From the IMG/VR virus record IMGVR_UViG_3300010354_000854, positions 1 to 20,748 of that record: DNA of 20,748 bases. One strand, given 5' to 3'. How positions within the stretch are numbered: the first letter of the stretch is position 1; each line of letters starts with the position of its first letter. This document shows positions 3,218 to 8,131 of the stretch, one piece after another. This stretch comes from a virus. The position numbers and the translations under genes are program-made. The notes beneath the pieces were generated by a model. The model ran no database searches. It saw nothing but the letters and a program-made list of their open reading frames with translations, and had not been told where the DNA came from.

Positions 3218-3428
3218 TCCATACAAGCGCCTGACCTATGCGAAGCGGTGCTTGGTCAATCTCAAGACCGGCTCAGCGTTCCGAGGATTCATCGTCTCTG
3301 CACCGGGCAGTGTAGTTGTGCTGAAAGCAGCGCAGCTCATTGAACCGGGTGCAGAGCCGGTAGATGTCCAAGGCGAGGTTCTCATCGAGAAGGCGAACAT
3401 CGACTTCATCCAAATCACGGAGGTGTAG
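3204..3428 (+). CDS. Small Sm-like beta-barrel protein of unknown role
   Basis: This 74-residue protein overlaps the end of the previous gene by 14 bases. The segments RCLVNLKTGSAFRGFIVSAP, SVVVLKAAQLIEPG and GEVLIEKANIDFIQI have the strand order of an Sm/LSm-like barrel: a first pair of strands with a KTG-xxFRG turn, then a strand, and a final D-FIQI strand. Comparable short proteins are often found between terminase and portal in actinophages. Their function is not established to my knowledge. The ATG at 3204 has AGGG only three bases upstream. A TTG at 3210 would give better spacing, so the true start may be two codons later. It could bind RNA or be a small head assembly factor; neither is shown by the sequence. 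Confidence 0.65.
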   Translation: MLLPNPYKRLTYAKRCLVNLKTGSAFRGFIVSAPGSVVVLKAAQLIEPGAEPVDVQGEVLIEKANIDFIQITEV

Positions 3429-3429
3429 A

Positions 3430-5376
3430 ATGGCAATCGTCCAGAACGGCGACGAGATACTCAATGTCCGCCCTCAGACGCCGCTCGCCCCGACACTCGG
3501 TGGCGCGATTCGACTCTTCGACGACCGGCAGATTGACCACGCCGATCTCTACAAGACCCAGCACGAAGTTCGCACAGTTGTGGACTTCCTTGCTCGCAAC
3601 ATCGCGCAGATTCCACTGCACGCCTATCGCAGGATCGACGACAATGACCGCGAAAGGCTGACTAACACACCACTGACCAACACTATCGAGAATCCTGACA
3701 TCTACGTCACACGAACTCGCTGGATGGAAGGTCTAGTCAAGGACTTGTGCATCTTCGATGAGGCAATCCGCATCAAGGTGCGCCACGACGATGGCCGAAT
3801 CGCTCTCGTCCGCGTGCCACCAACACTGGTCAAGCCAATCGGAACCAACTGGCTTCGTCCGGATGGCTATCAGGTCATCGGTCAGGGCCGCACGGTCGAG
3901 TTCTCGCGTGACGAGGTCATTCACATGCACGGCTATGATCCGAAAGACCCAAGAAAGGGTCTCAGCCCGCTTGAGACACTTCGCCAACTTCTCGCAGAGC
4001 AGTTCGCAGCAGCAGAACACCGTGAAGGACTATGGAAGCAAGGCGCTCGAGCTTCTCTCGTGATTGAGAGACCGCTAGGAGCACCGCCTTGGTCTGACAC
4101 AGCACGCTCTCGCTTCCGCGCTGAGTGGGATGCATCATTCACCGGTGCACGCAACTCAGGCAAGACCGCAGTGCTCGAGGAGGGCATGGTTGCCAAGCCG
4201 CTCGAGACCTTCTCACCAAGAGATTCACAATACATCGAGTCCTCGCAGCTCGCCAGAGAGATCGTGGCCGGAGCCTATGGCGTCCCGGCAGGCCTGCTTG
4301 GTCTAGGCAACTCAACCTACGCATCTCTGACAGAACAGAATCGCCAACTCTACCAGAACGCACTTGCACCTTGGCTCACCCTGATTCAGGAAGAACTCGA
4401 AGCGCAACTAGTTCCAGAGTTCGAGAATGAGGGCGTGTATCTTGAGTTCCAGTTGCAGGACAAGTTGCGCGGTTCATTCGAAGAGCAGGCAGCAGTTCTT
4501 CAGGCTTCAGTCGGAGCACCATACCTCACTCGCAACGAAGCAAGAGCACGGCTCAACCTTCGCGCAATCGAGGGCGGAGACGAACTAGTCACACCTCTCA
4601 ATGTGCTCATCGGTGGTCAGGCAAGTCCACAGGACAGCGTCAGCGATGACCGCGTCGTCGGCACACTGTCGAGCAACGAGATTCAAGCCAAGAGCGCTCT
4701 CGGTCGTGACACCTATGTCAACATCCGCAACGAAGCTGCGAAGGAACTGAACGCCGTGTTCAAGTCGAACCTCAATCGGCAACGCCGGTCAGTCATCAGC
4801 AAGCTCGGAGCACAGAAGAGCCTCATCTCAGAGGTGAAGGCTGATGCACGTCGAGTCTATGACCGCAGCAGGTTCGACAAGGAACTTGCGGCAGACCTTC
4901 TGCCGGTAATGCGCAAGACAGCCAAGAAGTCTGCCGCGACGGTCGGAGAATGGGACATCGAGAATGGTGAGAACTACCTCGCAGCAGTCGCTGAGAACGC
5001 AGCCAAGCGAGTCAACCTAGCAACCCAGGAAAGAATCGCCAACCGGCTCTCTGATCTTGACGATGAGGAAGACTTCATCGATGCAATGGACGAGCTATTC
5101 GACGAGATGACAGACGGCAAGGTCATCTCTGCTGGGTATTCAATCGCAGCATCTGTCGCCAACTTCGCTCGTATTGAGAGCGCCGGTGCCAACGGTAGAC
5201 GAACCAAGACGTGGATCGTGACCAGCGGGAACCCGCGCTCTTCACACGCAGCACTTGATGGCGAGACAGTAGCAATGAGTGAGGACTTCTCAATCGGAGC
5301 ACCTTGGCCCGGACACCCGTCGCTTGATCCGGAAGAGACTGCCAACTGCCAATGCATCTGCGACTTCGGAGATTGA
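3430..5376 (+). CDS. Portal protein fused to a MuF-like C-terminal domain
   Basis: The portal forms the ring at the capsid vertex through which DNA enters. Residues 30-400 of 648 match the HK97-type portal family: VVDFLARNIAQIPLHAY (50-66), WMEGLVKDLCIFDEA (98-112), FSRDEVIHMHGYDP (158-171), the SPRDSQYIESSQLAREIVAGAYGVP region (262-286) and LTEQNRQLYQNALAPW (300-315). After a helical linker (about 415-560), residues 591-646 carry a MuF-type head morphogenesis signature: KTWIVTSGNPRSSHAALDGE (593-612), then a Pro/Gly-rich stretch and ANCQCIC (638-644). MuF proteins are internal head proteins, often encoded separately after the portal. The start at 3430 has AGGTG just upstream. An in-frame start at 3364 would lie inside the previous gene and is rejected. 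Confidence 0.93.
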   Translation: MAIVQNGDEILNVRPQTPLAPTLGGAIRLFDDRQIDHADLYKTQHEVRTVVDFLARNIAQIPLHAYRRIDDNDRERLTNTPLTNTIENPDIYVTRTRWMEGLVKDLCIFDEAIRIKVRHDDGRIALVRVPPTLVKPIGTNWLRPDGYQVIGQGRTVEFSRDEVIHMHGYDPKDPRKGLSPLETLRQLLAEQFAAAEHREGLWKQGARASLVIERPLGAPPWSDTARSRFRAEWDASFTGARNSGKTAVLEEGMVAKPLETFSPRDSQYIESSQLAREIVAGAYGVPAGLLGLGNSTYASLTEQNRQLYQNALAPWLTLIQEELEAQLVPEFENEGVYLEFQLQDKLRGSFEEQAAVLQASVGAPYLTRNEARARLNLRAIEGGDELVTPLNVLIGGQASPQDSVSDDRVVGTLSSNEIQAKSALGRDTYVNIRNEAAKELNAVFKSNLNRQRRSVISKLGAQKSLISEVKADARRVYDRSRFDKELAADLLPVMRKTAKKSAATVGEWDIENGENYLAAVAENAAKRVNLATQERIANRLSDLDDEEDFIDAMDELFDEMTDGKVISAGYSIAASVANFARIESAGANGRRTKTWIVTSGNPRSSHAALDGETVAMSEDFSIGAPWPGHPSLDPEETANCQCICDFGD

Positions 5377-5377
5377 G

Positions 5378-6898
5378 ATGCCATACTTCGTGACCAACGA
5401 GAACCCAGACTGTGAAGGATGGGCAGTGGAGAAGGAAGACGGCGAAGTCGTTGGCTGCCATAGAACAAGGCAAGAAGCAATCGACCAGATGGTGGCAATC
5501 TCTCTAGCCGAGGACATACCTGTCGGCGGCGAGAGATCGGTCAAGCAGTATCAGGCGCCAGAAGGCGCACGAGAAGAGGCCGCTCGCGGCCTCGCTTGGC
5601 GTGAAGAATACGGCAGAGGCGGAACACTTGTCGGCGTCGCTCGAGCGAGAGACATCGTCAATCGTCGCAATCTATCCGAGGACACGATTCGCCGGATGGT
5701 GAGCTACTTCGCAAGGCATGAAGTCGACAAGCAGGGAGAGGGATGGTCACCCGATGAGGATGGCTACCCGTCAGCAGGAAGAATCGCTTGGGCACTATGG
5801 GGAGGAGACCCCGGTCGCACTTGGGCCGAGCGTATCTTGTCCAGTCTTGAGCAAGAAGAGCAGAAGAGCACTGAATCTACAATGAAGGAGGCAAGAACTA
5901 TGCAGGTCAAGTCATTCCCAGTCAGCACGATTGAGGTGAAGGCAGCGGCATCTTCAGAGGCGCCGCACGGAGAGTTCACAGCACTCGTGTCTGTGTTCGG
6001 GAACACCGATCTCGTCGGTGACCGCGTAATGCCCGGAGCCTTCAACAACAGCCTCGCAGCATACAAGGCAGCAGGCAAGACTCTTCCGATTGTCTGGTCA
6101 CACGACTGGGGCAATGCGGAATCATTCATCGGCAAGGCACTCAGCGCCGAAGAGACATCAGATGGGCTTCTCATCAGAGGTGCATTCTTCGACACACCAC
6201 GTGCGCAGACAGTTCGAACACTACTCGCAGAGCGTGTGGTGAGCGAGTTCTCGTTCGCCTATGACATCATCAATGAGCAGAAGGGTGCAGACGGAGTCAA
6301 CGAACTTCTCGAGCTGAGCATCCTCGAGGCTGGACCAACCCTGAAGGGTGCCAACCCAGCCACACAACTGATTGCAGCCAAGGCTGCGAAGGTTCGCCAC
6401 GGCAAGGCTGAACCCGATGAACTGAGTGAAGGTTCTTGGGTCGTCTGGGCCGGTGGCTATGGTCGAGTCGAATACATCATGACAGAGGGAACCTTCGGAG
6501 TCGAAGGCGACCCATTGAGCCTGCAAGCAACGCCAGAAGACCCGCTTGCTATGGTCAGGCTCTATGACGAGGAAGATGAGCAGTATCTTCCCAGCGAGTT
6601 CTTCCAGGGCTTCAGATTCAGCGAGCTTGAACTGAGCACCGAGAAGATGGCGAAGAGCGCAGTCTGGACACCCCGACTTGCGAACGCCAAGGCAGGGCGC
6701 ACCCTGTCTACCAAGAACGAAAACCTCATCAAGCAGGCCAAGAGCATGCTGGACGAGGTTCTGAGTTCGCTCGAGACACCGGCTGAGCCTGCCAAGACCG
6801 AGGAGCCTACTGAGGCCAAGGTCGAGGAGCGGGGGATGGAACCGGGGATCGCAGTGGTCCTACTCGACATCGCTGATGCCGAGACAGACCTTCCCTAG
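5378..6898 (+). CDS. Multidomain prohead maturation protease (S78/HK97 type)
   Basis: This 506-residue protein is predicted to cleave the capsid delta domain during maturation. Residues 1-50 form a small module with paired cysteines (CEGWAVEKEDGEVVGCH). Residues 58-155 form a separate module, REEAARGLAWREEYGRGG through PSAGRIAWALWGGDPGRTWA, seen in various phage proteins but without a known function. The S78 protease domain spans about 178-340; candidate catalytic residues are H242 (WSHD), S292 (SEFSFAY) and E312 (ELLELSILEAGP). Residues 347-422 (SEGSWVVWAGGYGRVEYIMT onward) resemble the HVA1/Tudor-like barrel found in many phage proteases. Residues 438-465 form a helix (AGRTLSTKNENLIKQAKSML) of scaffold type, followed by an acidic tail. 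GGAG at 5368-5371 supports the start. A second start lies at 5900. Confidence 0.9.
   Translation: MPYFVTNENPDCEGWAVEKEDGEVVGCHRTRQEAIDQMVAISLAEDIPVGGERSVKQYQAPEGAREEAARGLAWREEYGRGGTLVGVARARDIVNRRNLSEDTIRRMVSYFARHEVDKQGEGWSPDEDGYPSAGRIAWALWGGDPGRTWAERILSSLEQEEQKSTESTMKEARTMQVKSFPVSTIEVKAAASSEAPHGEFTALVSVFGNTDLVGDRVMPGAFNNSLAAYKAAGKTLPIVWSHDWGNAESFIGKALSAEETSDGLLIRGAFFDTPRAQTVRTLLAERVVSEFSFAYDIINEQKGADGVNELLELSILEAGPTLKGANPATQLIAAKAAKVRHGKAEPDELSEGSWVVWAGGYGRVEYIMTEGTFGVEGDPLSLQATPEDPLAMVRLYDEEDEQYLPSEFFQGFRFSELELSTEKMAKSAVWTPRLANAKAGRTLSTKNENLIKQAKSMLDEVLSSLETPAEPAKTEEPTEAKVEERGMEPGIAVVLLDIADAETDLP
5885..5891 (+). promoter_or_regulatory. Internal ribosome binding site within the protease gene
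   Basis: AAGGAGG, a near-perfect Shine-Dalgarno sequence, stands eight bases before an in-frame ATG at 5900. That ATG falls exactly between the N-terminal accessory modules and the protease domain. The motif and spacing are as good as those of the major capsid gene, so internal initiation is likely. The site also encodes part of the KEA linker in the long product. Confidence 0.6.
5900..6898 (+). CDS. Nested short form of the prohead protease (internal start)
   Basis: Translation from the ATG at 5900, in the same frame as the long gene, would give a 332-residue protein beginning MQVKSFPVSTIEVKAA. It contains the complete S78 protease domain, the Tudor-like module and the scaffold-like helix but none of the two N-terminal modules. 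Its start coincides with the usual beginning of stand-alone HK97-type proteases. The AAGGAGG at 5885-5891 gives it a stronger initiation signal than the long form's GGAG. The phage may therefore make two products, or the long form may be a minor readthrough of what were once two genes. Internal initiation is inferred from the sequence only. Confidence 0.5.
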   Translation: MQVKSFPVSTIEVKAAASSEAPHGEFTALVSVFGNTDLVGDRVMPGAFNNSLAAYKAAGKTLPIVWSHDWGNAESFIGKALSAEETSDGLLIRGAFFDTPRAQTVRTLLAERVVSEFSFAYDIINEQKGADGVNELLELSILEAGPTLKGANPATQLIAAKAAKVRHGKAEPDELSEGSWVVWAGGYGRVEYIMTEGTFGVEGDPLSLQATPEDPLAMVRLYDEEDEQYLPSEFFQGFRFSELELSTEKMAKSAVWTPRLANAKAGRTLSTKNENLIKQAKSMLDEVLSSLETPAEPAKTEEPTEAKVEERGMEPGIAVVLLDIADAETDLP

Positions 6899-6931: not shown

Positions 6932-8131
6932 ATGAAGCACCTGATCGAACAGGCCAAGGCTCTTGCTGAAGCAGCAGCAGCCGAAGGCCGCGCTCTCACA
7001 GCAGAAGAGCGCGAAACTGTCGAGGCAGCCATCTCTGGCGCCAAGGCAGTGAAGGCAGATGCAGAACTTCGCAAGGCAGTCGATGCTCTCGGAGCAGAAC
7101 TCGCCGATGCCAAGGTCGACGCATCAACAACAACTGCAGCACCTCGCACCACCGGTGGGAAGATGTTCGCAGACCCAGCATTCAAGGCATGGCTCACTGA
7201 CGCTACCCGCAACGGGCAGCCAGATGTGAAGTCACTGCCGAACTCGCCGTCAGTATCTGTCGGCGGAATCAAGGCAACACTGCTCGGCTCGAGCGACACC
7301 TCTGCAGGCGCAACCATCAGCAATGATCGCTACGCCCCAATCGGTATCGCATACGGTCGCGGCGGTCTGACTGCACTTGACCTCGTCACCATCGGTTCAA
7401 CAACTTCCGATGCAGTCGAGTTCGCTCGCGCAATGCGCATCACTGGTGGACAATCCGTCAACGCCGCAGCACCTGTGGCTGAAGGAGACCCAGCAGCAGA
7501 GTCCACACTGACATTCGTGAAGGACACAGCGGTAGTCAAGGACATCCGCACATTCCTTCCGGCTTCAGTTCGTGCTCTCTCAGACAGCGCACAGCTCGAA
7601 ACTATCGCCAACAACTACCTCACCTACGCAGTGCAGGAAGAGTTGGAAGACCAGATCATCAACGGAAACGGCACCGGTGAGAACATGACCGGTATCTTCA
7701 ACACCGGCTACGTCCAAGCTCAAGCGTTCGACACTGACATCGTCACGTCGATCCGCAAGGCTATCCGCAAGGTCCAGACCGTGGGCAACAGCCGCGCATC
7801 AGCGGTTCTCGTTCACCCAGAAGACAACGAGAAGATCGACTTGCTTCTCGATGCGCAGGACACCTACCTCTTCGGAGGCCCTGCAACTGCCTCGACACCG
7901 ACCATCTGGGGCTTGCCTCGCGTCGTGTCTTCAGCAGTTCCTGTCGGAAACGCCATCGTCGGCGACTTCCGCAAGAGCATCATCTGGGAGCGTCAACCAC
8001 TGACCGTGGCGATGTATCCACAGCACTCTGACTACGCAATCAAGGGTCTCGTGGCTCTGGTTGCGAATGCACGCGCTGCCTTCGGTGTTCTACACCCAGA
8101 AGCGTTCTGCACTGTCGACCTGACAGCCTAG
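6932..8131 (+). CDS. Major capsid protein, HK97 fold, with delta domain
   Basis: This is the main shell protein. The 399 residues begin with a charged, Ala-rich helical region (about 1-62, EQAKALAEAAAAEGRALTAE), which fits the HK97 delta domain that acts as an internal scaffold and is removed by the protease encoded upstream. A flexible Thr/Ser-rich linker follows (63-76). The fold itself includes PVAEGDPAAESTLTFVKDTA in the mid-region, LTYAVQEELEDQIINGNGTG (the spine helix and loop) and a C-terminal stretch, GDFRKSIIWERQPLTVAMYP through LVALVANARAAFGVLHPEAF, characteristic of the Phage_capsid family. AAGGAG at 6918-6923 lies eight bases before the ATG. The 33-base gap before it is A/C-rich. 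A strong hairpin follows the stop. Confidence 0.95.
   Translation: MKHLIEQAKALAEAAAAEGRALTAEERETVEAAISGAKAVKADAELRKAVDALGAELADAKVDASTTTAAPRTTGGKMFADPAFKAWLTDATRNGQPDVKSLPNSPSVSVGGIKATLLGSSDTSAGATISNDRYAPIGIAYGRGGLTALDLVTIGSTTSDAVEFARAMRITGGQSVNAAAPVAEGDPAAESTLTFVKDTAVVKDIRTFLPASVRALSDSAQLETIANNYLTYAVQEELEDQIINGNGTGENMTGIFNTGYVQAQAFDTDIVTSIRKAIRKVQTVGNSRASAVLVHPEDNEKIDLLLDAQDTYLFGGPATASTPTIWGLPRVVSSAVPVGNAIVGDFRKSIIWERQPLTVAMYPQHSDYAIKGLVALVANARAAFGVLHPEAFCTVDLTA

Follow-up and report, generated by a model that had tools for sequence, protein, structure and literature searches.

A conserved internal start in a phage S78 prohead protease gene predicts a long and a bare form of the enzyme

Two predicted starts in one head protease gene

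The window analysed here, a stretch of viral DNA 20,748 nt long, carries on its plus strand a protease gene between the portal and major capsid genes, the position typical of Peptidase_S78 prohead proteases. Two ATGs, at 5378 and 5900, open the same frame and run to a common stop that ends at 6898, giving products of 506 and 332 residues. The second is preceded by AAGGAGG (5885-5891, plus strand) and a spacer of 8 nt (5892-5899), so that a ribosome-binding site and start codon lie inside the gene, in frame, at a domain boundary and ahead of a stop common to both forms. The original prediction had named this motif, its eight-base spacing and the two product lengths, and the sequence bears out each exactly. 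The features of the locus are as follows.

3430..5376, plus strand: portal gene (Pfam Phage_portal, E 1.1e-77), whose ATG at 3430 has the strongest Shine-Dalgarno (SD) sequence of the window
5368..5371, plus strand: GGAG, the weaker SD of the long form, 6 nt before its ATG and overlapping the portal's last codons
5378..6898, plus strand: long form, 506 residues, predicted order N1-N2-linker-S78-TUDOR-like-helical tail (open reading frame; open in all fused relatives)
5378..5533, plus strand: N1 module, DUF2188-like, beta-beta-beta-alpha (Pfam DUF2188, 19.7 bits; AF2 model with high pLDDT)
5546..5857, plus strand: N2 module, all-helical, with a GGDPG..WAE motif (phrog_2859; several gene contexts)
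5858..5899, plus strand: poorly conserved linker that carries the internal SD (amino acid identity, dN/dS, pLDDT<50 at residues 166-183)
5882..5884, plus strand: second in-frame ATG with a weak SD (anti-SD energy -2.1), not generally conserved in relatives
5885..5891, plus strand: internal SD, AAGGAGG (sequence, conservation, anti-SD energy)
5900..5902, plus strand: internal start codon ATG, Met175 of the long form (ATG in 37/42 fused lineages; GTG in lineage L085)
5900..6898, plus strand: predicted short form, 332 residues, the bare S78 protease with its C-terminal parts (start homologous to those of stand-alone S78 genes)
5933..6391, plus strand: S78 protease core (Pfam PF04586, E 1.7e-14; invariant columns)
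6413..6637, plus strand: TUDOR/KOW-like beta block (missing from L002/L089; in other relatives it follows N2 and precedes S78, or lies on the portal)
6932..8131, plus strand: major capsid protein, HK97 fold, the next gene (Pfam Phage_capsid, E 1.8e-38)

Profile match, conserved His and Ser residues and gene order together identify the product as a Peptidase_S78 prohead protease, with scaffold cleavage as its putative activity. The Peptidase_S78 profile (PF04586) scores 54.7 bits against a curated cut-off of 21 (E 1.7e-14) over residues 186-338, and the protein also matches phrog_80 and phrog_3244, both head maturation protease. His242 (W-S-H-D) and Ser292 (F-S-F), which we take to be the conserved catalytic residues of the S78 active site, are invariant in 42 relatives. 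ATG 5900 had been predicted to coincide with the start of this domain. It does not do so exactly, since Met175 lies 11 residues ahead of the Pfam match, but it does fall within the interdomain linker, in a segment that AlphaFold predicts to be disordered (residues 166-183, pLDDT<50). The short form holds the whole S78 domain.

The two N-terminal modules postulated from the sequence are real. N1 resembles DUF2188 (PF09954), scoring below the gathering cut-off of that family (19.7 bits against 22). N2 lies inside phrog_2859, a group of unknown function; it has no PDB fold match below E 0.001 and no sequence match in the PDB, and its many viral matches in a structure search are informative on distribution only. 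On the C-terminal side, the TUDOR/KOW-like block is missing from the close relatives L002 and L089 and stands between N2 and S78 in polyproteins, and the portal ends of L037 and L051 resemble it (loci concerned: L076, L327, L330, L332, L037, L051). Judged by where it occurs, this block is a second mobile module.

The two starts differ in strength. A single base separates the portal TGA (5374-5376) from ATG 5378, and the anti-SD energy is -6.6 at the long-form start versus -10.1 at the internal site. In three relatives (L092, L094, L098) the long-form start lacks a recognisable SD, and the internal one has GGAGG. Together, these observations predict that the bare protease would be at least as abundant as the long form. 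The in-frame ATG at 5882 is an unlikely start, as its SD is weak and the codon is not conserved in general. The portal itself probably begins at ATG 3430, which has the best SD of the window and lies inside a frame that opens at 3364, rather than at the first ATG, 3364.

Within the window, the internal site is strong without being exceptional. ATG 5900 ranks 4th in anti-SD energy among 263 plus-strand ATGs, behind the likely starts of portal (3430), TerS (102) and gp2429. AAGGAGG-N4-10-ATG occurs once against 0.23 expected, and at least once in 22% of shuffles. Synonymous recoding of the linker produces an equally strong SD in 55% of draws (p=0.55), because Lys-Glu is easily written AAG GAG. 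Combined over 42 lineages, which are not independent of one another, the same recoding test gives p 7e-4. The local fold predicted for the RNA pairs part of the internal SD (mean unpaired probability 0.39), and local RNA structure offers no explanation, being unremarkable (z +1.1). Rarity in the window alone is weak evidence, and the case rests on conservation across relatives.

A mobile N-terminal module among head genes

We searched viral and genome collections with the protease half of the gene and read the layouts of the relatives from N1, N2 and S78 profiles. Portal, S78 and major capsid genes without the modules make up 55 loci, N1-N2-S78 takes the protease position in 51 and N2-S78 in 38. 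N1-N2 forms a separate gene downstream of the protease, before the capsid gene, in seven loci plus L007, and N2 sits at the protease C-terminus in eight. Elsewhere the portal carries N2, internally or at its end (L050, L060, L066, L075; probably also L030 and L070), and N1-N2 precedes a ClpP-type head protease in L034 and a protease-capsid polyprotein in L015. Outside fusions of this kind, then, the halves of the window gene exist as separate units (55 stand-alone S78 loci; 7-8 loci with an N1-N2 gene of its own), and the module is mobile. In none of the loci surveyed does N1-N2 form a gene of its own immediately ahead of the protease, and every fused lineage reads from N1-N2 into S78 in one open frame.

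The contexts of N2 thus comprise portal, protease N- and C-terminus, capsid polyprotein, ClpP-type protease and a gene of its own (examples in L013, L034, L050, L105 and L015). Further carriers of the module are phages of Roseobacter, Synechococcus and Vibrio, Pseudomonas phage PaBG, and tailed viruses of haloarchaea. Roseobacter phage CRP-811 (L225) has an 816-residue gene at 3423-5873, annotated only as major capsid protein, with an N2-like module near its N-terminus. By sequence motifs, enzyme-like domains stand between N2 and S78 in four lineages, HAD-like in L138 and L143 and P-loop kinase-like in L142 and L149.

The internal start is conserved beyond the protein sequence

We dereplicated the relatives with N2 fused in frame to an S78 protease to 42 lineages. 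The junction ATG was defined as the last ATG before the S78 core, picked blind to any SD, and 777 other internal ATGs of the same loci served as control. A junction ATG stands just before the core in 37 of the 42. Anti-SD energies of -6 or lower are found at 81% of junction ATGs versus 9% of the controls, at p 2e-18, a value that overstates the contrast as the lineages are not fully independent, while the positional peak described next is unaffected. At -8 or lower the fractions are 35% and 2%. Complementarity to the anti-SD forms a sharp peak 5-9 nt upstream of the ATG and stays at background level in the rest of these linkers, so that a general purine richness of the linkers does not account for it.

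The SD is kept while the peptide that it encodes changes. GGAG occurs in three codon registers (13/9/2) and is encoded as K-E, R-R, G-E, E-E or R-S. Near the window, the linker peptides KEARTM, KHDRRAM, KEGTRQM, EKGEYRM, QEEHKM, TEEYKM, KESHSM and KEHANM, together with SKGGSKV before a GTG start, each write the SD differently. In L085 the Met is replaced by a GTG-coded Val with AAAGGGGG in front. Linker identity at the amino acid level is 21-43% against L002, L089, L092 and L099 (21-29% against L002 and L089). Linker dN/dS is 0.60-0.64 against L002 and L089, compared with 0.03-0.07 for N1 and N2 and 0.06 for S78 against L082/L083, with synonymous sites near saturation in the more distant pairs. 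Conservation acts at the RNA level, on a linker whose peptide is nearly unconstrained while N1, N2 and S78 are strongly constrained. The strong purifying selection on the modules, in a fusion kept in frame, argues that the long form matters too.

A second fused clade (L004, L035, L037, L063 and kin) mostly writes the SD as AGG AGC. The rare codon AGG accounts for 12 of 17 Arg codons at the site versus 4.6% in the surrounding genes (p 4e-13). L143, whose HAD-like domain separates N2 from S78, still has GAGGAG-N8-ATG directly before S78. Every lineage found at 66% or higher protease-domain identity to the window keeps the internal site. Positional peak, codon registers, linker dN/dS and AGG bias all support the expectation that the conservation of SD and start codon exceeds what the protein sequence would impose.

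A probable old gene start, and where the pattern ends

Stand-alone S78 genes show where the internal start comes from. Most of them begin 10-14 codons ahead of the S78 profile, 11 being the commonest distance, and their starts have strong SDs; the internal ATGs of the window clade likewise lie 10-14 codons before it, and the first residues of the stand-alone proteins in L105 and L106 align with the internal start. By this homology the predicted short form is the canonical protease and the long form an extension of it.

In a protease-domain tree built by a quick method with SH-aLRT support, the window clade and the second SD-bearing clade are separated by stand-alone proteases. Six SD-less lineages of the window clade (L132, L134, L136, L140, L142, L145) form one branch, among them L142, whose P-loop kinase-like insert is followed by no internal SD-ATG. 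The most parsimonious history would have the site arrive with two or more fusions and disappear once, in a sister clade. Lack of conservation had been named as the finding that would speak against an internal start: the site is conserved within the window's own clade, but the sister clade has lost it.

The pattern has further boundaries. Cultured Pontimonas phage phiPsal1, which has a similar long protease, carries no junction ATG. Most module-protease-capsid polyproteins lack an internal site, and an ATG with anti-SD energy of -6 or lower is present in 27 of 42 lineages with a separate capsid gene versus 6 of 18 polyproteins. When a later scan added 37 fused lineages, most of them truncated or polyproteins with long linkers, the excess was weak at most (6/24 ATGs at -6 or lower versus 11%, p 0.04). 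We limit the claim mainly to fusions with a separate capsid gene, as these comparisons suggest.

A proposal for two protease species in the prohead

We conclude that the internal start is very probably real and under selection, and that the gene is strongly predicted to yield two products. Ribosomes ending the portal gene would restart one base later at 5378, at a modest SD, by what we infer to be termination-reinitiation, and make the 506-residue N1-N2-S78 protein. Others would load independently at AAGGAGG and ATG 5900 and make the 332-residue bare protease, the counterpart of the stand-alone S78 enzymes of other phages. The internal start would be the protease's old gene start, selected to stay after the mobile N1-N2 module fused in front. 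Both proteins would be made, the bare form at least as abundantly.

What two forms would be good for is a more tentative matter. The original prediction had proposed, as a candidate function, that they tune scaffold, localisation or substrate choice. Perhaps N1-N2 is a mobile module of the head interior that spreads through the tailed phages by fusion to head-interior proteins, and its S78 fusions keep the old start to set the dose of protease with cargo against protease without. As the protease is packaged inside the prohead, the long molecules, a minority, would bring N1-N2 in with them, and the bare form would supply most of the cleavage. The positions of N2 on portal, protease and capsid polyprotein agree with a role inside the head, where from portal and capsid topology the N2-bearing ends of the fusion partners should presumably lie. 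Dosing is our best guess at the purpose, one we hold with less than even confidence.

The strongest rival concerns purpose and is likewise held at less than even confidence: N1-N2 could direct the long protease to the scaffold or the portal, or regulate its activation, with the bare form as the effector. Portal proteins carry N2 too, internally or at their end, as do ClpP-type head proteases unrelated to S78, and this points to such a role; the occurrence of N2 as a gene of its own beside the capsid gene suits cargo at least as well. Within the error of our analysis, this rival and dosing are equally likely.

The other rivals concern the internal start itself. Prohead proteases of the S78 kind cut themselves as well as scaffold, and a cut in the linker, predicted to be disordered, could release a bare protease to which internal initiation adds little. 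We consider this unlikely, as the linker sequence is not conserved in the way expected of a cleavage site and the conservation of the SD would be left unexplained. Distinctly unlikely, too, is that SD and ATG are a relic of the former protease start in a gene that now makes only the long protein. Homology to stand-alone starts fits a relic, and one sister clade has dispensed with the site; yet every lineage at 66% identity or above has kept it through linker turnover and near-saturated synonymous change, and a separate clade has retained a rare AGG codon there. Very improbable is coding coincidence, by which a linker favouring charged residues (KE, EE, EG, RS) would bring SD-like codons with it: the recoding result for the window alone allows it, but the confinement of complementarity to 5-9 nt before the ATG largely refutes it, the three codon registers and the AGG bias count against it, and N1-N2 fusions to ClpP-type proteases have no strong SD-ATG at the boundary despite their charged linkers. 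Just as improbable is an SD-like string that slows ribosomes between two domains for folding, without initiation; its location exactly in the interdomain linker would suit a pause, but a pause needs no start codon, and one is co-conserved at canonical spacing (37/42, GTG in L085).

Relation to known systems

The closest precedents for internal initiation, translated from in-frame starts within a single gene, come from endolysins, for which full-length and shortened enzymes are established (PMC9430671, PMC12203907). As in two-polypeptide endolysins with a Type I iTSS (PMC9430671, PMC12203907), the window gene has one open reading frame, a start in an interdomain linker and a common stop, and would pair a full-length enzyme with an N-terminally truncated one that retains a catalytic domain. 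Unlike them, it encodes a protease of capsid maturation, not of lysis, and the part removed is a mobile head module without a recognised catalytic domain. Endolysin products have been detected, whereas for the window gene comparison shows the conservation of the site and the two products are predicted.

Phage lambda has nested head genes, C and Nu3, in which the protease gene contains an internal start for the scaffold. The roles of C and Nu3 are described in PMC3224144. The window gene shares with this pair the nested in-frame products and a head-protease gene between portal and capsid genes. The short lambda product is a scaffold without the protease, whereas the short product here would be the protease itself. 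We rejected a nested scaffold of the Nu3 type, as the short form contains the whole S78 domain, the wrong content for it; the scaffold of the window phage is expected on its capsid protein, in the HK97 style and unlike lambda.

The protease domain (PF04586) and the order portal-protease-capsid are those of the HK97 and D3 S78 prohead proteases (PMC12749128), from which the window gene differs in its N-terminal N1-N2 extension, TUDOR-like block and second start. Proteases of this type act inside the prohead, at about 60 copies in HK97 and about 90 in D3 (PMC12749128). Nested in-frame starts are known; an internal start in an S78 protease is apparently new, with no report of one found in the literature searched, which took in few subscription papers.

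If the proposal is right, many phage genes annotated 'prohead protease' are described by the longer of their two proteins alone, and prohead stoichiometry in these phages has to be modelled with two protease species. The comparisons used here (anti-SD peak, codon registers and rare AGG codons) also provide a test for selected internal starts in modular phage genes. N2 (phrog_2859) is a widespread, unstudied head module, and its natural fusions hint at a means of getting proteins into capsids. Should the dosing of a mobile module prove true, the nested starts would be a conserved device, acting at translation, by which a protein module is loaded into the capsid.
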